DNA of 49,401 nt from Erythrobacter sp. ANT-B3C2 (lineage in GTDB: Bacteria; Pseudomonadota; Alphaproteobacteria; Sphingomonadales; Sphingomonadaceae), in the NCBI GenBank assembly GCA_001683845.1, contig LXQI01000034.1:87545-136945 (forward strand). The letters are read 5' to 3'. Under the pieces are notes generated by a model. The model searched no databases. It was not told the origin of the DNA and saw only the letters and a program-made list of their open reading frames with translations. Both the position numbers and the translations under genes were made by a program. Shown here piece by piece: positions 26,799 to 37,752 of the stretch; within the stretch, counting starts at the first letter, position 1, and every line of letters starts with the position of its first letter.

Positions 26799-27089
26799 AT
26801 GAGGATCAGGAACGTCGTCCATAACGGATTGCGACGCTTCATCGAGGATGACGACGCCAGCGGGCTTCAGCCTGCTGTATTGTCGAAAGTCCGTCGCATC
26901 GTCACATTCCTCCAGGACATGGAGCGCGAGGAAGAGATGCGGACCGTGCCGAGCTGGAAAGCACACCAGCTCACCGGCGACCGCAAGGGCAGCTGGAGCC
27001 TGTTCGTCACCAAGAATTGGCGGATGACGTTCCGGATCGACCGAGAGGAGGTCGAGATCATCGACCTCGACTATGAGGACTACCACTAG
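26799..27089 (+). CDS. higB: HigB-type toxin (RelE/ParE superfamily)
   Basis: It is 96 aa. It matches the plasmid-maintenance killer family: a short helical start, VPSWKAHQLTGDRKGSWSL, FVTKNWRMTFRI and a final DLDYEDYH with the usual C-terminal histidine. Family members are ribosome-dependent mRNA endoribonucleases. It comes before its antitoxin, the reversed order that defines higBA loci. The pair would stabilise the element after integration or mobilization. Confidence 0.9.
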   Translation: MRIRNVVHNGLRRFIEDDDASGLQPAVLSKVRRIVTFLQDMEREEEMRTVPSWKAHQLTGDRKGSWSLFVTKNWRMTFRIDREEVEIIDLDYEDYH

Positions 27090-27098
27090 GAGGTGGCA

Positions 27099-27431
27099 AT
27101 GAACGCGGTTTCTGGTTTTCGCATGAAGCGCCCTGCCCATCCCGGCGGCTTCGTCAAGCACGAGATCATCGAGCCGCTGGAGCTGTCGGTGACGGCGGCG
27201 GCGGGCGTATTAGGGGTGACGCGGGCGACGCTTTCGACCCTGCTGAACGAGCGCGCCAGCCTTTCGCCCGAAATGGCGCTACGCATCGAAAAGGCGTTCG
27301 GCGTGTCAATGGACACGTTGATGCGGATGCAGAATAGCTACGACATCGCCCTCACCCGCGATCGGGCGGGCGAGATCAATGTGGCCCCGTTCAAGGGCAA
27401 GCCGCTCGACCGTCAGGCGGCCATTGCGTGA
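27099..27431 (+). CDS. higA: HigA antitoxin, XRE-family regulator
   Basis: It is 110 aa. The N-terminus RPAHPGGFVKHEIIEPLELS is the HigA signature. The helix-turn-helix reads AAGVLGVTRATLSTLLNER, with the trailing MALRIEKAFGVSMDTLMRMQ. The ATG at 27099 is preferred over the GTG at 27093 because AGGAGG lies 5 bases upstream of it. Nine bases separate it from higB. It should bind the toxin and repress the higBA promoter. Confidence 0.92.
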   Translation: MNAVSGFRMKRPAHPGGFVKHEIIEPLELSVTAAAGVLGVTRATLSTLLNERASLSPEMALRIEKAFGVSMDTLMRMQNSYDIALTRDRAGEINVAPFKGKPLDRQAAIA

Positions 27432-28102: not shown

Positions 28103-28126
28103 AAAAAAGACGGGGCCGTAGCCCCG
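28103..28126 (-). terminator. Terminator of the tracrRNA, possibly bidirectional
   Basis: A 6-bp all-GC stem (CGGGGC/GCCCCG) with a 4-base loop is followed on the minus strand by TCTTTTTT. On the plus strand it sits just after nusG and is followed by CCCTTATTT, so it may also end nusG transcripts. Confidence 0.85.
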
Positions 28127-28190
28127 CCCTTATTTGGTGCAGTCAAACTGCTTGTTAACAGCTGGCCCTGCGATTTCTGAACTCAGTCCC
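28103..28190 (-). ncRNA. tracrRNA (short form)
   Basis: Minus-strand RNA with the anti-repeat at its 5' end (28183 down to 28163). It pairs over 20 bp with the CRISPR repeat, with one bulged base at 28168 (core TGCGATTTCTGAACT on the plus strand). Then comes a nexus hairpin GCAGT-TTG-ACTGC (28151-28139), and finally a terminator stem with six U. This is the normal layout of a type II tracrRNA. Because the anti-repeat is on the minus strand, crRNAs must also be read from the minus strand of the array. The 5' end is not fixed: TTGACG at 28217-28212 could be its -35, but no good -10 is visible at the right spacing. Confidence 0.88.
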
Positions 28191-28220
28191 TTTTCACCGA
28201 AACGGTTGAAGCGTCAAGTG

Positions 28221-28262
28221 CGAAAGCCTTCCCGCTCGCATAAGTGGGCAGGAAGGCTTTCG
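28221..28262. repeat. 12-bp perfect inverted repeat (internal hairpin of the long tracrRNA)
   Basis: CGAAAGCCTTCC (28221-28232) and GGAAGGCTTTCG (28251-28262) are perfect complements, with CCGCT/AGTGG pairing further inside. It lies between the degenerate repeat and the anti-repeat, where it would extend the repeat:anti-repeat helix. Confidence 0.8.
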
Positions 28263-28288
28263 GTTCAGAGATCGAGGCCAGCAGCAAC
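28263..28288 (-). repeat. Degenerate CRISPR repeat outside the array
   Basis: In crRNA orientation it begins GTTGCTGCTGGCCT and ends CGATCTCTGAAC. It matches 23 of the first 27 positions of the array repeat (GTTGCGGTTGGCCT..., CGATTTCTGAAC), with one missing base. It lies about 4.7 kb from the array, on the same strand as the tracrRNA and about 80 bases upstream of the anti-repeat. Confidence 0.85.
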
Positions 28289-28363
28289 ACGTAGTGCTAC
28301 ACGCGTCTATGATTGGAACCTAAGCACCAACCTTCACTCGCACAATCCCTAGCCTCCTTGATA

Positions 28364-28373
28364 AGCACTACGT
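28364..28373 (+). promoter_or_regulatory. Putative target site of the natural single guide
   Basis: AGCACTACGT is identical to the 10 bases preceding the degenerate repeat in the minus-strand RNA. It is followed on the plus strand by AGGCATTG (PAM position) and, 5 bp after the match, by the probable cas9 -35 box. Binding of Cas9 here would cover that promoter; a 10-nt match is too short for cutting by known Cas9s. Confidence 0.6.
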
Positions 28374-28378
28374 AGGCA

Positions 28379-28408
28379 TTGACGGACATGTTGATATAGG
28401 CGTAGCTA
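28379..28408 (+). promoter_or_regulatory. Candidate cas9 promoter
   Basis: TTGACG, an 18-bp spacer and TAGCTA. The -35 and -10 resemble those of higBA (TTGACA, 17, TAGCTA). The predicted leader is about 75 bases and contains the hairpin at 28447-28472. Confidence 0.5.
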
Positions 28409-28446: not shown

Positions 28447-28472
28447 GGAGGGCAGGACTAGTTCTGCCCTCC
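28447..28472 (+). promoter_or_regulatory. Hairpin in the cas9 5' leader
   Basis: GGAGGGCAG (28447-28455) pairs perfectly with CTGCCCTCC (28464-28472) around an 8-base loop. It ends 16 bases before the cas9 ATG and 6 bases before the weak AGAGG ribosome-binding site. There is no U-tract, so it is not an ordinary terminator; it could influence translation or be a dyad operator. Confidence 0.6.
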
Positions 28473-28488: not shown

Positions 28489-31400
28489 ATGAGACGACTG
28501 GGACTGGATATGGGCACCAACAGCATCGGCTGGTGCCTGACCGAAGACGACGGACGCATCGTCGACATCGGCGCGCGCATCTTCGCCGACGGACGCGACC
28601 CCAAGTCCGGCGCGTCGCTCGCGGTCGACCGGCGCATGGCGCGCGGCATGCGACGGCGGCGCGACCGCTATATCGGCCGCCGCTCCGCCTTCCTCGCCGC
28701 GCTGGTCGAACACGGGCTGATGCCCGCCGATGCCGACGAGGCCCGGCTGGTCGGCGAACGCGATCCCTATGTCCTGCGCGCCCGCGCGCTGCACGATCGG
28801 CTCGACCCGTACGACATCGGCCGCGCGCTGTTCCACCTCAACCAGCGGCGCGGGTTCAAGTCGAACCGCAAGGCCGAGCGCAAGCAGAAGGACCAGGAGG
28901 ACGGCAAGATCGCCGGCGGCGCACGGGCGCTCGACCAGGCGATGGCCGAGTCGGGCGCGGACACGCTGGGCGAGTTCCTGTCGTTCCGCGACACCAAGCG
29001 CGTACGCATGGGCGGCGAGAACCAGGAGTATGACTTCTACCCGCAGCGGCGGCACGTCGAGTATGAATATGGCCGCATCTGGGAGTCGCAGGCGGTGCAC
29101 CACCCTGCCCTCCTGACCGAGACCGCGCGCGTGGCGCTGCACCGCATCCTGTTCTTCCAGCGCCCGCTCAAGGAACAGCCGGTCGGCCTGTGCACCTTCG
29201 TCAACCAGCCGCCCAACCACGAGTACCGTCTGCCCAAGGCACACCCGCTGTTCCAGGAGCGGCGCTTGTACGAGGAGGTCAACCATCTCGAGATCACGAC
29301 CCCGGGCGAAGCGCCGCGCAAGCTGACACCTGGTGAACGCGACGACCTAATCCTCGAAATGCGCGGCAAGCGCGAGGTCAGCTTCGCGCGGCTGGGCAAA
29401 CGGCTCAAGCTCGAACCCGGCCAGAGCTTCAACAAGGCGAGCGAGGCGCGCACCCACCTGCGCGGCGACGAGGTATACGCCGCGCTCGCGGACAAAAGGC
29501 GCTTCGGTCCCAACTGGGCGCATCTCGGTCCCGACCGGCAGTGGCTGGTCATCGAGCGGCTGCTCGACGAGGAGGACCCCGACGCGCTCCACGCTTTTCT
29601 CACCGAAGATTTCGGCCTCGACGAAGACCGCGCCCGCGCGACCGCGAAAGCCCCCCTGCCCGAGGGCCACGGCCGGCTCGGCAACACCGCGACCCGGCTG
29701 ATCCTGGAAGCGCTCAAGACGGACGTCGTCACCTACGATGTCGCCGTGCGGAGCGCGCTGCCCCACCATCATTCGGATTTCCGCACGGGCGAGGTGCTGC
29801 CCAAGCTGCCTTATTACGGCGAGCTCCTCACCCGCGAGATCCCGCCCGGCACGCTCGACCCCGCCGATCCGCCCGAGGTGCGCTGGGGCAAGATCACCAA
29901 CCCCACCGTTCACATCGGCCTTCGCCAGCTGGAAAAGCTCGTCAATGCGGTCATCGCGGTCCACGGACGGCCGGACCAGATCGTGGTCGAGCTGGCGCGC
30001 GAGCTCAATCTCAGCGAGGACGACAAGAAGAAGCACAATGTCCGCATCCGCGACAACACCGCGGCGGCGGTCAAGCGCTCCGAAAAGCTCGTGAGCATGG
30101 GCCAGCCCGACACCGGCGCCAATCGCATGCTGCTGCGCATGTGGGAAGAATTGAATCCGCACAACCCGCTCGACCGGCGCTGTCCCTATTGCGGCGAGAT
30201 GATCGGGGCCGAGCTGCTGTTCGCCAGCGGCGCGGCCGACGTCGACCACATCCTCCCTTACTCGCGCACGCTGGACGACGGCACCGCCAACAAGGTCGTC
30301 GCCCACCGCGCGTGCAATCGCGCCAAGGGCAACAAGACCCCGTACGAGCGCTGGGGCGCGGATGAGACGCGCTGGGAAATCATCACCGCGCAGGTCGCAC
30401 GGCTGCACAAATCCAAGCAGTGGCGCTTCGGGCCGGACGCGATGGAGCGGTTCGACAAGGACGGCGGCTTCCTCGCACGCCAGCTGACGGATACGCAGTA
30501 CCTGTCGCGCATGGCCCGCAGCTACCTGTCCAGCCTCTACATCGGCGAGGAGAAAGGCGAAGGCGTCTACGTCATCCCCGGCCGCATGACCGCCATGCTG
30601 CGCCGCCTATGGGCGTTGAACGACATCCTCGGCGACCACAACATCGTCGAGAACAAGCACTCCAACGCGCCTAAGAACCGGCTCGATCACCGTCATCACG
30701 CGATCGACGCGGCAGTCGTGGCGGTCACGACCCGTTCGCTACTGGGCGAGATCGCCAAGGCGGCCGGCCGCGCCGAGGACAAGGATCTCGACAAGCAGTT
30801 CGAAGGACTGCCTCAACCCTGGCCCGGCTTCCGCGACGAACTCCGCGATAAGCTGGGCAACGTCACGGTCAGCCACAAGCCCGACCATGGCCGCAAGGGG
30901 CGCCCTGCCCCCGGCCACGACGTGACCGCCGGACAGCTGCATAACGACACCGCCTATGGCCTGACCGGAGAAACAGCGGCGGACGGTAAGACGCCGATCG
31001 TCGTTCACCGCGTGCCGCTGACGAGCCTGAAACCGGGCGACTTGACCGACCCGCTCCGCATTCCGGACGAGGCGTTGCGCGACGCGCTTTACCGCGCGAC
31101 CGAGGGCCTTAGCGGCAAGCCCCGCGAACAGGCCCTCGCCCGCTTCGCGGCAACAGACAAGGTGTTCAAGGGCATCCGGCGCGTCCGCGTGCGCGAGCCG
31201 CTCAACGTCATCCCGATCCGCGACAAGGCAGGACGCGCCTACAAAGCCTATAAGGGCGACGCCAACGCGCGGTTCGATGTTTGGCGGATGCCGGACGGCA
31301 AGTGGACGGCGGATATCGTGTCGATGTTCGACGCGCACCAGCCGGCGCAAGCCGATCGCCGGCCGCATCCCGCCGCCAGGAAGATGCTCAGCCTGCGGCA

Positions 31401-31662
31401 GAACGACATGATCGCCATCGAGCGCGACGGCGCATCTCCGCAGGTCGTACGAGTCGTCAAATTTTCGACCATCGGCGCGATCGCGCTCGCACCGGATAAT
31501 GAGGCGGGTGCGCTCAAGGCGCGGGACGCCACCTCCAACGAACTCGACCCGTTCAAATATGTCTACTCGTCCGCCGGCGGACTCAAGAAGCTCCGGGCCC
31601 GCCAGGTGCGCATCGACCCGCTCGGCCGCGTCTTCGATCCGGGGCCGCGCGAACCGGCCTGA
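28489..31662 (+). CDS. cas9: CRISPR-associated endonuclease Cas9, type II-C
   Basis: It is 1057 aa, the compact size of type II-C. All nuclease residues are present: RuvC-I Asp7 (LGLDMGTNSIGW), RuvC-II Glu501 (IVVELAREL), HNH His587 (ADVDHILPYS) with Asn610 (CNRAKGNKTP), and RuvC-III His737/Asp740 (HHAIDAAVVA). The arginine-rich bridge helix is RMARGMRRRRDRYIGRR (~48-65). The stretch up to ~480 is the REC lobe and the last ~250 residues the PAM-interacting part. CPYCGEM precedes the HNH motif and could bind a metal. The ATG has a weak AGAGG site. Cas1 follows after 23 bases; there is no cas4 or csn2, as expected for II-C. It should be active. Confidence 0.97.
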   Translation: MRRLGLDMGTNSIGWCLTEDDGRIVDIGARIFADGRDPKSGASLAVDRRMARGMRRRRDRYIGRRSAFLAALVEHGLMPADADEARLVGERDPYVLRARALHDRLDPYDIGRALFHLNQRRGFKSNRKAERKQKDQEDGKIAGGARALDQAMAESGADTLGEFLSFRDTKRVRMGGENQEYDFYPQRRHVEYEYGRIWESQAVHHPALLTETARVALHRILFFQRPLKEQPVGLCTFVNQPPNHEYRLPKAHPLFQERRLYEEVNHLEITTPGEAPRKLTPGERDDLILEMRGKREVSFARLGKRLKLEPGQSFNKASEARTHLRGDEVYAALADKRRFGPNWAHLGPDRQWLVIERLLDEEDPDALHAFLTEDFGLDEDRARATAKAPLPEGHGRLGNTATRLILEALKTDVVTYDVAVRSALPHHHSDFRTGEVLPKLPYYGELLTREIPPGTLDPADPPEVRWGKITNPTVHIGLRQLEKLVNAVIAVHGRPDQIVVELARELNLSEDDKKKHNVRIRDNTAAAVKRSEKLVSMGQPDTGANRMLLRMWEELNPHNPLDRRCPYCGEMIGAELLFASGAADVDHILPYSRTLDDGTANKVVAHRACNRAKGNKTPYERWGADETRWEIITAQVARLHKSKQWRFGPDAMERFDKDGGFLARQLTDTQYLSRMARSYLSSLYIGEEKGEGVYVIPGRMTAMLRRLWALNDILGDHNIVENKHSNAPKNRLDHRHHAIDAAVVAVTTRSLLGEIAKAAGRAEDKDLDKQFEGLPQPWPGFRDELRDKLGNVTVSHKPDHGRKGRPAPGHDVTAGQLHNDTAYGLTGETAADGKTPIVVHRVPLTSLKPGDLTDPLRIPDEALRDALYRATEGLSGKPREQALARFAATDKVFKGIRRVRVREPLNVIPIRDKAGRAYKAYKGDANARFDVWRMPDGKWTADIVSMFDAHQPAQADRRPHPAARKMLSLRQNDMIAIERDGASPQVVRVVKFSTIGAIALAPDNEAGALKARDATSNELDPFKYVYSSAGGLKKLRARQVRIDPLGRVFDPGPREPA

Positions 31663-31685: not shown

Positions 31686-32621
31686 ATGGACCGCATCGTC
31701 GATATCGCTACCGAAGGTCTCCACCTCTCCACCTATCGCGGCTTCCTGATGGTCGAGAAAGAGCGCGAAGAGGTCGGGCGGGTCGCGCTCGACGATGTTC
31801 ACGCCGTCATCGTCCACGCGCATGGCGTCACGTGGAGCGGTAACATCGTCGCCGCGCTTGCTTCGCGCGGCGCGCCGGTCGTGTTCTGCGGCGCCAACCA
31901 TTGCCCGATCGCGGTGACATTACCGCTGGAGGGCCATCATGCCCAGGGCGCGAAGATGCGGGCGCAATGGGGGGCGTCGCGGCCGCTGTGCAAGCAGCTG
32001 TGGCGACGGGTCGTCCAGGCCAAGATCGCGATGCAGGGATCGCTGCTGGAGGCACGCGCGGCCGAGGGCGCCGTGGCCTTCGCCCATATCGCGCGCCGCG
32101 TCCGTTCGGGCGACCCGGAGAACCTGGAGGCCCAGGCGGCGCGACGCTACTGGCCGCTTCTGATGGGTGACGCCTTTCGGCGGGACCGCGCGCAGGACGG
32201 CGCCAACGCCTTGCTCAATTACGGCTATACGGTGATGCGCGCGACCGTGGCGCGGGCGATCGTCGCGGCGGGGCTGCACCCGACGATCGGTATCCAGCAC
32301 GCCAATCGCGGCAACGCCTTCGCGCTCGCCGACGATCTGGTCGAGCCGTTCCGTCCGCTCGTCGACGCGCTTGTGATGGGGATGCTGAGCGAGGGAGTCG
32401 CGACGCTCGATCCGCCCGCCAAGCGCCGCTTCGCCCGGCTGATCGCGTTCGACCTCAGGATCGGCGGGGAGACCTCGCCGGTCTCGGTCGCCGCGCAGCG
32501 CCTCGCCCAGTCGCTCGCCCGCGCCTTCGAGACCGGCCGTCCCGAGCTGGCGCTGTTCGATCCGCCGACGGCGATCGAGTGGGCGGGCGCCGGCCGTGTC
32601 GGCGCCGAGGACACGGAGTGA
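31686..32621 (+). CDS. cas1: CRISPR integrase Cas1 (type II)
   Basis: It is 311 aa. Metal-binding catalytic residues of the family are seen: Glu148 in ENLEAQAARRYW, His205 in IGIQHANRGN and Glu220 in DDLVEPFRP. With Cas2 it integrates new spacers; in type II systems Cas9 helps choose PAM-flanked protospacers. GGGAGGGG lies 5-12 bases before the ATG, a strong ribosome-binding site compared with that of cas9. The stop overlaps the cas2 GTG (GTGA). Confidence 0.96.
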   Translation: MDRIVDIATEGLHLSTYRGFLMVEKEREEVGRVALDDVHAVIVHAHGVTWSGNIVAALASRGAPVVFCGANHCPIAVTLPLEGHHAQGAKMRAQWGASRPLCKQLWRRVVQAKIAMQGSLLEARAAEGAVAFAHIARRVRSGDPENLEAQAARRYWPLLMGDAFRRDRAQDGANALLNYGYTVMRATVARAIVAAGLHPTIGIQHANRGNAFALADDLVEPFRPLVDALVMGMLSEGVATLDPPAKRRFARLIAFDLRIGGETSPVSVAAQRLAQSLARAFETGRPELALFDPPTAIEWAGAGRVGAEDTE

Positions 32622-32965
32622 GCGCGGGCGACGGCGCGCATTTGAGCGGGTACCGGCTGATGTGGATTTTCGTGATGTTCGATCTGCCGGTGGGAACGAA
32701 GAAGCAGTCGCGCGAGGCGACCAGGTTCCGCGAGTATCTGCTCGACGAAGGCTTTGAGATGAGCCAGTTTTCGGTCTATGCGCGGTTCTGCAACGGCAAG
32801 GACAGCTACGAGTCGCATTTGAAGCGGATCGAGCGCAACCTGCCCGAGAAGGGCGACATCCATGTCCTCACCTTCACCGACCGTCAGTATGAGAATATCG
32901 TCCGATTCTCGAGCCAGCGCCGCAAAAAGCCGCGCAAGAACCCCGACCAGCTCGCCATGTTCTGA
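32618..32965 (+). CDS. cas2: CRISPR-associated protein Cas2
   Basis: It is 115 aa from the GTG at 32618, overlapping cas1 by 4 bases; an in-frame ATG at 32579 lies inside cas1. The ferredoxin-like fold begins LMWIFVMFDLPVGTKKQ, with the conserved Asp22. SQFSVYARFC and DIHVLTFTDRQYENI follow. The C-terminus is basic (RRKKPRKNP). It forms the structural centre of the Cas1-Cas2 integration complex. The array starts 72 bases after its stop. Confidence 0.95.
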   Translation: MSAGDGAHLSGYRLMWIFVMFDLPVGTKKQSREATRFREYLLDEGFEMSQFSVYARFCNGKDSYESHLKRIERNLPEKGDIHVLTFTDRQYENIVRFSSQRRKKPRKNPDQLAMF

Positions 32966-33037: not shown

Positions 33038-36000
33038 GGCCTAGCAGTTCAGAAATCGCAGGCCAACCGCAACGCCTTCGATGTCAGCCCCACCCGCAGG
33101 AATGGCCTAGCAGTTCAGAAATCGCAGGCCAACCGCAACGAGCAGAACAAGGACATTCTCACCTATATGGGCCTAGCAGTTCAGAAATCGCAGGCCAACC
33201 GCAACTTCACGGTGGAGCGTCCCGGGCGCGTGGTGGGCCTAGCAGTTCAGAAATCGCAGGCCAACCGCAACGAAGCGATCCCGATGCCGACGAGTGGTGC
33301 GGGCCTAGCAGTTCAGAAATCGCAGGCCAACCGCAACCCTCGACGGGTTCGAGGGGTTCGACCAAGCGGCCTAGCAGTTCAGAAATCGCAGGCCAACCGC
33401 AACTTGCCCCGCCTAGGTGTTGCCGCCGCGCTCGGCCTAGCAGTTCAGAAATCGCAGGCCAACCGCAACGGCGGCACGCTCGGCTTCCACTACCCGGCCG
33501 GCCTAGCAGTTCAGAAATCGCAGGCCAACCGCAACCACCAGTTCAAGGGCGCTGCGGCCGACAAGGGCCTAGCAGTTCAGAAATCGCAGGCCAACCGCAA
33601 CTGCCCGTCCTTCAGCTTGCGCGCCGCGCCCGGCCTAGCAGTTCAGAAATCGCAGGCCAACCGCAACCTCCCTTTCAGGACAGCAGCCTGACGATTCGGC
33701 CTAGCAGTTCAGAAATCGCAGGCCAACCGCAACCCAACACGACGTCATGTCCTCGCGATCTTCGGCCTAGCAGTTCAGAAATCGCAGGCCAACCGCAACC
33801 GATGGCGATATATACCGGCCCCAGGTCCGGGCCTAGCAGTTCAGAAATCGCAGGCCAACCGCAACGGCGGGTGGCCAGCAGCCTGGGACCAAGATGGCCT
33901 AGCAGTTCAGAAATCGCAGGCCAACCGCAACGAGGCCATCGAAACGATGCTATCGAGCAGAGGCCTAGCAGTTCAGAAATCGCAGGCCAACCGCAACTAT
34001 CGCCCGCTGCGTATATCGCGGTAGCCAAGCCTAGCAGTTCAGAAATCGCAGGCCAACCGCAACTGACGGTGGCATCGTGCTGGGCCTTCATCCGGCCTAG
34101 CAGTTCAGAAATCGCAGGCCAACCGCAACTGGGTCATCTGGCGGCCCGCCGTGCGGTTGGGCCTAGCAGTTCAGAAATCGCAGGCCAACCGCAACGTGCC
34201 ATGACGAGCAACGGAACGAATTACGGGCCTAGCAGTTCAGAAATCGCAGGCCAACCGCAACTAGGGGGCGCGGGGATCGCGGGGATCGGCAGGCCTAGCA
34301 GTTCAGAAATCGCAGGCCAACCGCAACCGACTGTCGCGGTTGCTGAATACCCGTTCGGGCCTAGCAGTTCAGAAATCGCAGGCCAACCGCAACTTTATTT
34401 CGAGGGTGTCACGCCAGAGGTTGGGCCTAGCAGTTCAGAAATCGCAGGCCAACCGCAACTCACCGGTTCGGGGGTCGGGGCATTCGATCGGCCTAGCAGT
34501 TCAGAAATCGCAGGCCAACCGCAACAATGTGCGGCAGGGCTACTTTTTCCCACGTGGCCTAGCAGTTCAGAAATCGCAGGCCAACCGCAACCAAGGGAGA
34601 CCGGGGTCGCCCGCCTCGCCAAGCCTAGCAGTTCAGAAATCGCAGGCCAACCGCAACCTCGGTTAGCGCGTCCACGCTGGCCACCGTGGCCTAGCAGTTC
34701 AGAAATCGCAGGCCAACCGCAACGATTGGGGCGGGGGAAAGCCAACAGAGACCGGCCTAGCAGTTCAGAAATCGCAGGCCAACCGCAACTACGCTGAGGC
34801 CAACGCCAACGCCTATGCCTGGCCTAGCAGTTCAGAAATCGCAGGCCAACCGCAACTAGAAGCCCGCCTTCATGGCCTCCCAGCGAGGCCTAGCAGTTCA
34901 GAAATCGCAGGCCAACCGCAACTACTAGGCAGCAGCATCGCGAACCAGACGCGGCCTAGCAGTTCAGAAATCGCAGGCCAACCGCAACTCGGGCGCTATC
35001 AGGGCGGCAAGCGCGTCAGGCCTAGCAGTTCAGAAATCGCAGGCCAACCGCAACCTTGGACGCCAAGGGACGGGGACCGGCCCGGGCCTAGCAGTTCAGA
35101 AATCGCAGGCCAACCGCAACCAGAGCGGGGTCCGGGTGCTGGGTGTTCCGGGCCTAGCAGTTCAGAAATCGCAGGCCAACCGCAACACACTTGTAGTTGG
35201 CAGTCTTAGCCGCCGCGGCCTAGCAGTTCAGAAATCGCAGGCCAACCGCAACGCAGCGGACATATTCGCCCCGCGCGCCCGTGGCCTAGCAGTTCAGAAA
35301 TCGCAGGCCAACCGCAACTCCGTCTCAACCTGGAAGCGGGTGCTGGCGGGCCTAGCAGTTCAGAAATCGCAGGCCAACCGCAACTAACGAGTTGTGGTAC
35401 GCCGATCGTGCGTAGGCCTAGCAGTTCAGAAATCGCAGGCCAACCGCAACCGCCAGCGCTTCGGGCTCGTACAGCTCGGGGGCCTAGCAGTTCAGAAATC
35501 GCAGGCCAACCGCAACTGCTTCGAAGGCCGGTTCAGTGCCTCCTGGGGCCTAGCAGTTCAGAAATCGCAGGCCAACCGCAACCCCAGCGCCGCTTCAGCC
35601 GCAGCCGTCTGGGGCCTAGCAGTTCAGAAATCGCAGGCCAACCGCAACTCAGTAGGCAGATGGGGACAGACCCCGCAGGGCCTAGCAGTTCAGAAATCGC
35701 AGGCCAACCGCAACGCGCCGATCGGCCACAAAGCGCCGCCGGGGGGCCTAGCAGTTCAGAAATCGCAGGCCAACCGCAACTTAAGCTCGTCCCGCAACAG
35801 CATCACGCCTGGCCTAGCAGTTCAGAAATCGCAGGCCAACCGCAACGCTTTCGGCAGGCTTACGAAACGGCTGCCTAGCCTAGCAGTTCAGAAATCGCAG
35901 GCCAACCGCAACCTCGGCGGGGCGGTTGACATTCGCAGCGATGGCCTAGCAGTTCAGAAATCGCAGGCCAACCGCAACCCACCGGCCGCGCAGATGTCGA

Positions 36001-36439
36001 TCAGGTTTGGCCTAGCAGTTCAGAAATCGCAGGCCAACCGCAACTCGGCGGGCAGGCCGATGCCCATCACCTGCGGCCTAGCAGTTCAGAAATCGCAGGC
36101 CAACCGCAACGCTTTGCTGCCAGTGCCGAACGGAAACGGGGGCTAGCAGTTCAGAAATCGCAGGCCAACCGCAACAGGATATTCTCGAGGGGGTGATCGG
36201 CGAAGGGCCTAGCAGTTCAGAAATCGCAGGCCAACCGCAACCCTGTCGCTGATGTAGAGGCGGCAACCGAGGGCCTAGCAGTTCAGAAATCGCAGGCCAA
36301 CCGCAACGCGGGCTTTGGAGACACGGTGCTATCCGCAGGCCTAGCAGTTCAGAAATCGCAGGCCAACCGCAACGAGCGACCCGCCGGGGAGTTCCTGACG
36401 CAAGGCCTAGCAGTTCAGAAATCGCAGGCCAACCGCAAC
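33038..36439 (-). CRISPR. Type II-C CRISPR array, 52 repeats and 51 spacers
   Basis: The 36-bp repeat, read on the plus strand, starts GGCCTAGCAGTTCAG and ends GGCCAACCGCAAC. It recurs every 66 bp from 33038 to 36404. All spacers I measured are 30 bp, except one of 31 (34790-34820) and one of 29 (36111-36139). The repeats are almost invariant: three have A instead of G at position 1 (34028, 34622, 35877) and one has G at position 3 (36140). The tracrRNA pairs with the minus-strand reading (GTTGCGGTTGG...), so the array is transcribed right to left, opposite to cas9-cas1-cas2. The leader would then lie at 36440-36537. I see no spacer that is obviously duplicated. Confidence 0.98.
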
Positions 36440-36537: not shown

Positions 36538-37692
36538 TTAGCCGACGTCCACATAGTCGCGCCAAGCATCCATCAACATCCGCCGCTTGGCGAAAAAGTC
36601 CGTTCGGCGATAGGCTGCCTCCACCTTGTCGGGGAGCTGATGGGCAAGCGCCTTATCGACGATCTCCTTGGGCGTTTCGGTCTCCTCCGCCGCCCAGTCG
36701 GTGAAAGCCGAGCGGAAGCCGTGGACCGTGATCCGCTCGTGTCCCATATCGCGCAGCACCTTGGTCATGGTCATGTCACTCAGCGGCTTCTCGCCATCGT
36801 TCGAGAACACCAGACCATCGTCCGCCTCGCGCAGCTTCCAGCGCCGACGGAGCAACGCGACGGCGCTCTCGGGCAGCGGCACGACATGCGGTTTGCCCGT
36901 CTTCATGCGCTCGCCGGGAATGGCCCAGACGGCTTTGTCCAAATCCAACTCCGGCCAAACAGCAAAGCGCGTCTCGTTCGAGCGGACGGCCGTGTAGATC
37001 GTGAAGCGCAACGCGTCGCGCCCAGCCGTGGGCGATAGCGCCTTCAGTTCGCCGACAAAGCCTGGCACGTCCGCGAACGGCATCGCCTCGTAATGATTGT
37101 CGCGGCGCGGCTGGCGCGGCAGCCCCTTGCGCACAGAGCGCAGCGCCGCTTCCGTTGGGCACCAGCCATTGACGTGCGCATAGTCGAGCACCGTGCCGAT
37201 CCGCTGGAGCGTACGGCGCGCCGTCTCAGGCACCTTGAGCCAGATCGGCGCCAGCACATCGCGCACCATGATGGTGTCGATCCGATCGACCGGCTCCGCG
37301 CCGAACGTCGGGAAGGCATGGTTCTCCAGGCACGCGATCCAGGAGTCGATGTGCTTCTTGTTGCGCCATCCCTCCTTCATCGCCGCATGGCACGTGCGCG
37401 CCGCGTCCTCGAAGGTCGGCACCGACGCTTTTGGAGCAGCGGACGCCTTCTTCGGCGCGATCGTCTCGCCATTCTGATATTTACGCCGAAGCTCAGCGAC
37501 CGCAGACCGGGCGTCGCTTAGCGATACCGTATGCGCCGAGCCCAAGCCAAAATCGCGTCGCTTGCCATCGGCCTGGATGCGGGCCACCCAAGCACGCGAA
37601 CCGCCTTCGCGGACGACGAGATAGAGGCCGCGTCCGTCCGCGTGACGGCCGGGCTTGGCGGTGCGCACCTGTAAGGTTGTCAATCCGGACAT
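36538..37692 (-). CDS. int: Tyrosine recombinase / P4-type integrase
   Basis: It is 384 aa. The N-terminal arm-binding domain (DUF4102) includes VRTAKPGRHADGRGLYLVV; a SAM-like core-binding domain follows around residues 95-185. The catalytic domain has the first Arg in YTAVRSNETRFAVW, the HGFRSAFTDWAAE box (His-x-x-Arg) and the nucleophile Tyr in KVEAAYRRTDFF. It integrates the element at tRNA-Ala. The ATG at 37692 is chosen over the longer frame to 37746, because GGGAGAG precedes it and the family start MSGLTTLQVRTAKPG fits. It is transcribed away from attR, which lies 150 bp upstream. Confidence 0.95.
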   Translation of the reverse strand: MSGLTTLQVRTAKPGRHADGRGLYLVVREGGSRAWVARIQADGKRRDFGLGSAHTVSLSDARSAVAELRRKYQNGETIAPKKASAAPKASVPTFEDAARTCHAAMKEGWRNKKHIDSWIACLENHAFPTFGAEPVDRIDTIMVRDVLAPIWLKVPETARRTLQRIGTVLDYAHVNGWCPTEAALRSVRKGLPRQPRRDNHYEAMPFADVPGFVGELKALSPTAGRDALRFTIYTAVRSNETRFAVWPELDLDKAVWAIPGERMKTGKPHVVPLPESAVALLRRRWKLREADDGLVFSNDGEKPLSDMTMTKVLRDMGHERITVHGFRSAFTDWAAEETETPKEIVDKALAHQLPDKVEAAYRRTDFFAKRRMLMDAWRDYVDVG

Positions 37693-37701
37693 ATAACTCT
37701 C

Positions 37702-37738
37702 CCGTCCCACAATCCGTCCCACATTTCGTGTGGGACGG
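37702..37738. repeat. Right-end iterated motif upstream of int
   Basis: CCGTCCCACA occurs at 37702-37711 and 37714-37723 (12-bp step) and as its inverse complement at 37729-37738. The last two form a perfect 10-bp palindrome with a 5-base loop. The same motif lies near attL. All three copies are between the likely int transcription start and the int ATG, so integrase or AlpA binding here could control int. Confidence 0.65.
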
Positions 37739-37752
37739 AGCGGCACGAGGAG

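Follow-up and report, generated by a model that had tools for sequence, protein, structure and literature searches.

Tracr-L, the long tracrRNA of the type II-A system of Streptococcus pyogenes, was reportedly described by Workman et al. in Cell in 2021. The crRNA-like mini-arrays of a 2023 survey are said to carry partial-match guides with which a Cas effector represses neighbouring genes, with no tracrRNA fusion. In S. pyogenes, two promoters give tracr-L, which represses Pcas, and the short form tracr-S, and Streptococcus mutans is reported to carry a divergent tracr-L and target (excerpts of PMC11417352), so that changing guide-target pairs are already known within type II-A. With its 11-nt guide tracr-L binds without cutting (excerpt of PMC8616872), and its feedback is described as conserved between S. 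pyogenes and Streptococcus agalactiae (excerpt of PMC12216829). According to a 2021 review (PMC8616872), no subtype but II-A has the extended form; an sgRNA-like unit has been predicted in the type II-A system of Listeria monocytogenes, and separate scaRNAs in type II-C (Guzina et al. 2018, excerpt of PMC6199352). Our literature search, with most subscription papers lying outside it, returned no paper joining tracr-L with type II-C, and type II-C is mentioned in none of 31 titles from a broader one.

The DNA analysed here, a stretch of 49,401 nucleotides from Erythrobacter sp. ANT-B3C2 (hereafter the window), contains the following CRISPR-Cas genes and array.

28489 to 31662, plus strand: cas9, 1057 aa, uninterrupted (TIGR01865, 555.4 bits; PF18541, PF13395)
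31686 to 32621, plus strand: cas1, type II, NMENI family (TIGR03639, 235.5 bits)
32663 to 32965, plus strand: cas2 (TIGR01573, 70.8 bits)
33038 to 36439, minus strand: CRISPR array, 52 repeats of 36 bp and 51 spacers; the minus strand was taken to give the crRNA sense

This is a type II-C CRISPR-Cas locus. The gene order is cas9, cas1, cas2, array; csn2 and cas4 are absent, as judged by gene order at the locus alone; and the compact Cas9 of 1057 aa is related to II-C Cas9s and keeps its RuvC and HNH motifs (PF18541, PF13395 and alignment to the solved Cas9 9ar4). Among its best solved-structure matches are 9ar4 and 6jdq, which we take to be the Geobacillus and Neisseria II-C enzymes, the structure records saying only Cas9. 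Directly beyond the array lies an ORF resembling, by eye, a phage-type integrase (36538-37746, minus strand), and the conjugative relaxase TraA is encoded upstream of the CRISPR locus; flanked in this way, the locus may sit in a mobile region. A RelE-like protein (below cut-off) and a HigA antitoxin are encoded at 26799-27431, upstream of nusG and the CRISPR locus.

The tracrRNA lies upstream of cas9 and is divergent from it. Read along the minus strand, its region presents a guide, a degenerate repeat, a hairpin, TTGACG, the anti-repeat and a terminator, all on one strand as expected of a natural single guide.

28289 to 28298, minus strand: guide AGCACTACGT, 10 nt, predicted 5' end of the long tracrRNA, with an exact copy at 28364-28373
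28263 to 28288, minus strand: degenerate CRISPR repeat, the putative crRNA-like half of a natural single guide
28221 to 28262, minus strand: loop hairpin of 12 perfect pairs between repeat and anti-repeat, seen in sequence and fold
28212 to 28217, minus strand: TTGACG, possible -35 box of a putative short-tracrRNA promoter in the loop
28160 to 28183, minus strand: anti-repeat of the tracrRNA, complementary to both the array repeat and the degenerate repeat
28103 to 28159, minus strand: tracrRNA nexus GTTAACAAG, tail, and terminator hairpin with a T run ending at 28103

The preliminary description had placed a degenerate repeat, matching at 23 of 27 positions, on the tracrRNA strand some 80 bases upstream of the anti-repeat. 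Alignment by hand to the array repeat GTTGCGGTTGGCCTGCGATTTCTGAAC, a consensus built from 52 copies, agrees (23 of 27 columns identical, three mismatches, one gap), and the spacing is 79 nt. The pairing of repeat and anti-repeat within one molecule that it had proposed amounts to -31.7 kcal/mol, and the perfect 12-bp hairpin thought to close the fused helix is present. Folding, which had been suggested as a check, bore out this architecture: the predicted 195-nt RNA has a fold of -92 kcal/mol, whereas 200 shuffles gave -62.2 (sd 4.2; z -7.1). In this fold all but one of the ten guide letters stay unpaired, the degenerate repeat pairs with the anti-repeat and the hairpin closes the loop. The modules of three relatives, L048, L008 (from Sphingomonas sp. 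3P27F8) and L025 (our locus numbers), fold alike, with z of -4.6, -6.2 and -6.7. Across 12 aligned modules the tracrRNA tail is conserved, and the loop sequence of the window differs from those of the other 11. A TTGAC stands 54-58 nt 5' of the nexus in nine of the ten modules measured, and at 69 nt in L037. The terminator of the tracrRNA was read by eye, the consensus scan giving only its plus-strand mirror; that scan found no terminator on the minus strand between the repeat-like arm and the anti-repeat, and it also missed the tracrRNA's own.

The exact copy of the guide and the features beside it are as follows.

28364 to 28373, plus strand: target (protospacer-like) site, exact 10-nt match to the guide
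28374 to 28381, plus strand: AGGCATTG, predicted PAM (NGGNAYTG), overlapping the -35 box
28379 to 28384, plus strand: TTGACG, read by eye as the probable -35 box for cas9, 5 nt after the target

The 10-nt copy that the preliminary description had noted 5 bp before TTGACG is the only second copy of the guide in the genome: the 10-mer occurs exactly twice in 2,735,175 bp, as guide and as target, and the reversed pattern seven times. The guide-target match in the window exceeds chance. A short guide matches the cas promoter region, the promoter having been assigned by eye. A sigma-70 scan found no promoter on either strand, which is why the promoters were read by eye. Immediately 5' of the cas9 start, at 28447-28472, lies a GC-rich hairpin by predicted fold, GGAGGGCAGGACTAGTTCTGCCCTCC; similar hairpins were noticed by eye 5' of cas9 in L048, L008, L028, L025 and some short-gap loci, and control of cas9 translation or elongation by them is possible.

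We propose, with a probability of roughly 0.87 and from sequence and comparative analysis, that the module encodes a natural single-guide RNA whose 10-nt guide would hold Cas9 at the probable cas9 promoter without cleavage and so repress cas9. The evidence that carries this proposal comes from relatives. Cas9 relatives were sought in 13 named contigs, in 396, 397 and 385 genomes of the order, family and class, and in 6 and 201 genomes of two genera; a Cas9 match was present in 49 of the 396, 32 of the 397 and 63 of the 385, and up to 30 loci per search were examined. Of 56 plasmid records, five were included. Among the matches listed, the closest named relatives were Sphingomonas and kin. From the first set we dropped four regions that shared their 300-bp upstream sequence with another and six shorter than 250 bp, and from the later set two duplicates; L161-L163 were also left out. 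The analysis thus covers 93 distinct cas9 upstream regions, window included. A loose tracrRNA nexus motif occurs in 79 of them, 75 of these on the strand divergent from cas9, and the strict motif occurs on the divergent strand in 67, at distances from cas9 of less than 130 nt in 24, 130-199 in 20, 200-349 in 18 and at least 350 in 5. In L017, L004 and L152 the tracrRNA is reversed, lying on the same strand as cas9.

Candidate modules were picked by a fixed rule, namely a repeat start of the form [GA][TC]TG and anti-repeat pairing at -20 kcal/mol or better, which yielded 12 loci; a guide was counted as matching if it had at least 9 exact nt, or at least 11 nt with one mismatch, in its own cas9 upstream region. 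Nine of the 12 guides match their own region, whereas none of 132 foreign pairings does, and the guide-target co-variation that had been suggested as a check in related II-C loci is therefore found. Two of these nine, L070 and L072, rank as weak; the three candidates lacking an own match are L019, L026 and L009, and in L009 the rule chose the wrong site. Among 2400 trials with shuffled guides, pooled over the 12 loci, 10 reached at least 9 exact nt and 10 reached 11 nt with one mismatch; for pretend guides placed at each position of these regions the counts were 5 and 6 of 1387, respectively. Applied unchanged to seven later regions, the rule gave sites in two, L154 and L152. The L154 guide matches over 12 nt with one mismatch; that of L152, where the pairing barely exceeds the threshold and the tracrRNA lies on the cas9 strand, has no match in its own region. 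The repeat start motif G[TC]TG[CT] retrieved seven loci, against a mean of 0.3 for 40 control motifs, the highest of which (three loci) overlaps the true motif shifted by one base. L005 and L009 were missed by the pairing filter of -20 kcal/mol because their repeat arm is short.

In all, a firm module is present in 10 of the 93 regions (the window, L048, L005, L020, L008, L009, L028, L154, L025 and L037). In each of them the guide has a different sequence, ends where the degenerate repeat begins and matches its own cas9 upstream region over 8-12 nt, exactly in seven and with one mismatch in three. The two weak loci are L072, with 9 exact nt (11 if one mismatch is allowed) and the flank AGTTTTAC, and L070, with 7 exact nt (12 if one mismatch is allowed), a repeat arm whose first letters are ATTG, the flank GGAAACTT and a target 171 nt from cas9. 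L026 (positions 1019-1174), a sister of L025, was set aside: its match of at least 18 nt with the region upstream of cas9 leaves 2 nt between itself and the degenerate repeat, which would put a mismatch next to the PAM.

The places of the targets bear on what such an RNA would do. In the window the target lies between two divergent promoters, both of which could be hit, and in L037 and the weak L070 it lies farther from cas9, at 431 and 171 nt; these features would suit a natural single guide with another main job, be it control of its own tracrRNA promoter, control of another gene or a lowering of free tracrRNA. In L005, L009 and L020, in contrast, the target is found on the other strand, 39-45 nt upstream of cas9, beyond a TTGAC of the cas9 strand and far from the tracrRNA start, which makes cas9 the shared element, and in the window genome the 10-nt guide has no further exact match. 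We consider such another main job unlikely, and repression of cas9 remains the reading that we prefer.

The sequence beside the target offers a view of the PAM. The flanks are AGGCATTG in the window and L028, GGGGATTG in L048 and L020, AGGAATTG in L008 and GGGGACTG in L154, and from these six loci the pattern NGGNAYTG was defined. A scan for this pattern together with a guide match returned the six defining loci plus L005 (8 nt) and L009 (11 nt exact), neither of which had been used in the definition; L005 had already been suspected by eye and L009 was new. Fifty-nine random rearrangements of the letters of NGGNAYTG returned no locus. Eight firm loci out of ten have the flank; the remaining two, L025 and L037, match exactly over 12 nt but are flanked by GGAGTTTT and AGAAGGTA. 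Since TTGA follows on from the flank in three loci (the window, L048 and L008), its TTG may partly reflect the -35 box; in L005, L009 and L020, however, the target is on the other strand, downstream of TTGAC, and the ATTG of the flank there is not a -35 box. NGGNAYTG is a likely candidate for the PAM of the Cas9 at these loci. The preliminary description had named NNNCAT of Parvibaculum as a PAM that would fit; the comparison does not support it, since the eight loci have C, G or A at position 4.

Spacers were of little help here. Convincing protospacers were found in phages or plasmids neither for the spacers of the window array nor for those of the L112 array, whose plasmid matches are other arrays and transposase DNA among the best 15 of 203 records. 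Nor did any appear when spacers (143 of 241 joined) were compared with 397 genomes (two candidates scored for most of them; 199 genomes with matches at E 0.01 or better, the majority no better than chance), or when 680 spacers were checked against the relatives' loci; six scans of viral contigs with single spacers gave 0 matches each. The four best weak genome matches have the flanks GGGTCTTT, GGGGTCGG, GAATAACT and GGCGACGA, none of which fits NGGNAYTG. A PAM drawn from protospacers was rejected, the few partial matches disagreeing on it and being taken as coding homologues. Term searches of PMC7606464 and PMC8482600 found no PAM for this Cas9 clade. The arrays of L098, L103, L111, L112, L113 and L117 each hold identical spacers in more than one copy, suggestive of array duplication or of spacers acquired repeatedly.

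To compare the paired arms, 12 modules were aligned (the ten firm ones together with L072 and L026), and the helix of repeat arm and anti-repeat was set by hand from this alignment. In this helix 95.6% of cells are paired, against at most 54.3% in slid versions. Ten of its 18 pairs show changes on both sides, a number as high in none of 500 shuffles; part of this compensation may come from the array, as array repeat and anti-repeat also co-evolve. Taken with the nine relatives whose different guides match their own cas9 upstream regions, seven of them with the flank type of the window, these compensatory changes strongly support the natural single-guide reading of the preliminary description.

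The distribution of the module is patchy. It is absent from L046, the closest relative among the matches listed (80% Cas9 identity, 105-nt gap), where guide and target are lacking together; it is found in none of the 44 loci with a tracr-cas9 gap below 200, where room is scant, and not in 10 of the 23 with a gap of at least 200. The conservation in close relatives that had been expected thus fails in L046 and stands in nine other relatives that carry the guide-target match. On a Cas9 tree of 59 rows, ten of them firm, made by a quick method and with long branches (including L037 with L069) flagged as unsure, the firm loci require 9 changes against a mean of 9.5 for shuffled labels (202 of 500 as low), so that presence is scattered with clustering no greater than chance. 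L020 and L154, which are sisters, differ in guide sequence and in the strand of the target. The scatter is compatible with repeated gain, with repeated loss and with an exchange of upstream regions.

A functionless relic in decay, consisting of a stray repeat and the remains of a spacer, whose matches persist by descent, would agree with the nine changes for ten loci, with the empty L046 and with the stronger anti-repeat pairing of the array repeat than of the degenerate repeat in five of the six loci with a known array. Compensatory helix changes are not expected of relics, and the targets are still matched after the guide sequence has changed; moreover, in L008 the degenerate arm pairs with the anti-repeat at -41.8, against -34.6 for the array repeat, and an arm that out-pairs the array repeat is not expected of a relic either. 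We regard this origin as very improbable. Equally improbable is an ordinary inverted repeat, such as repressor half-sites between divergent promoters with the degenerate repeat unrelated, for although the window copies are inverted, 65 bp apart and between two divergent genes, the sequence changes from one firm locus to the next and stops at the repeat start, is repeated directly, not in inverted form, in L005, L009 and L020, and is tied to a start motif that far exceeds its controls.

Under repression of cas9 by a natural single guide, the long form would be transcribed as one RNA from a promoter just before the guide and would load into Cas9, which would recognize the NGGNAYTG flank as its PAM and bind the target at 28364-28373; binding without cutting would be expected because the match is only 10 nt. 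The bound Cas9 would sterically block RNA polymerase at the -35 region of cas9, and more free Cas9 would lead to less cas9 transcription. The TTGAC in the loop may serve as a second promoter giving the ordinary short tracrRNA, in which case immunity and feedback could be set separately. Because its nuclease motifs are retained, this Cas9 should kill the cell if directed to the chromosome by a full-length guide. More broadly, it seems probable, judging from the sequences, that alphaproteobacterial II-C systems have a short-guide self-repression of their own, in which a cassette of about 200 bp joins guide and target and is gained, lost or rewritten between close lineages, with an operator in one of two places, either at the -35 box or across the promoter on the opposite strand, and with NGGNAYTG as the PAM of the clade.

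If this is true, Cas9 feedback on its own gene via a natural single guide exists in type II-C too, and the changing guide-target pairs point to maintenance by selection. It would make testable how compact Cas9 systems keep nuclease levels low, and would supply scaffolds of natural single guides together with a PAM prediction for one Cas9 clade. The comparative method, in which the guide is recognized by its degenerate repeat and the target is sought upstream of cas9, would serve to find such RNAs and to read PAMs without phage sequences.

Very likely the module corresponds, in type II-C, to tracr-L, the natural single guide of type II-A. Both consist of a long tracrRNA isoform that serves (here by prediction) as one guide RNA, with a target beside a PAM, likewise predicted here, at a cas promoter; both have separate promoters for the long and short forms and bind without cutting, features that are predicted on the II-C side; and the guide of 11 nt in tracr-L compares with 8-12 nt matched in the II-C modules (tracr-L side from excerpts of the sources cited above). 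Unlike tracr-L, the modules belong to type II-C systems of alphaproteobacteria with the predicted PAM NGGNAYTG, their targets occupy two positions and strands among relatives, and the window loop has an extra hairpin. The Listeria sgRNA-like unit also has two repeat-homologous segments upstream of the cas genes that fold together, but it is of type II-A and is described there without a target, and its authors' scaRNA:tracrRNA target prediction failed (excerpt of PMC6199352). The scaRNAs of Francisella novicida (II-B) and Neisseria meningitidis (II-C) resemble the module as non-array CRISPR-related RNAs that act with Cas9 in gene regulation, and differ from it as separate RNAs, unfused to tracrRNA, that regulate other genes (excerpts of PMC8616872 and PMC13431127). 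In the CreA RNAs of type I and other systems, partial-match guides similarly turn a Cas effector into a repressor of a neighbouring gene, through different effectors and with no tracrRNA fusion (excerpt of PMC9458426).
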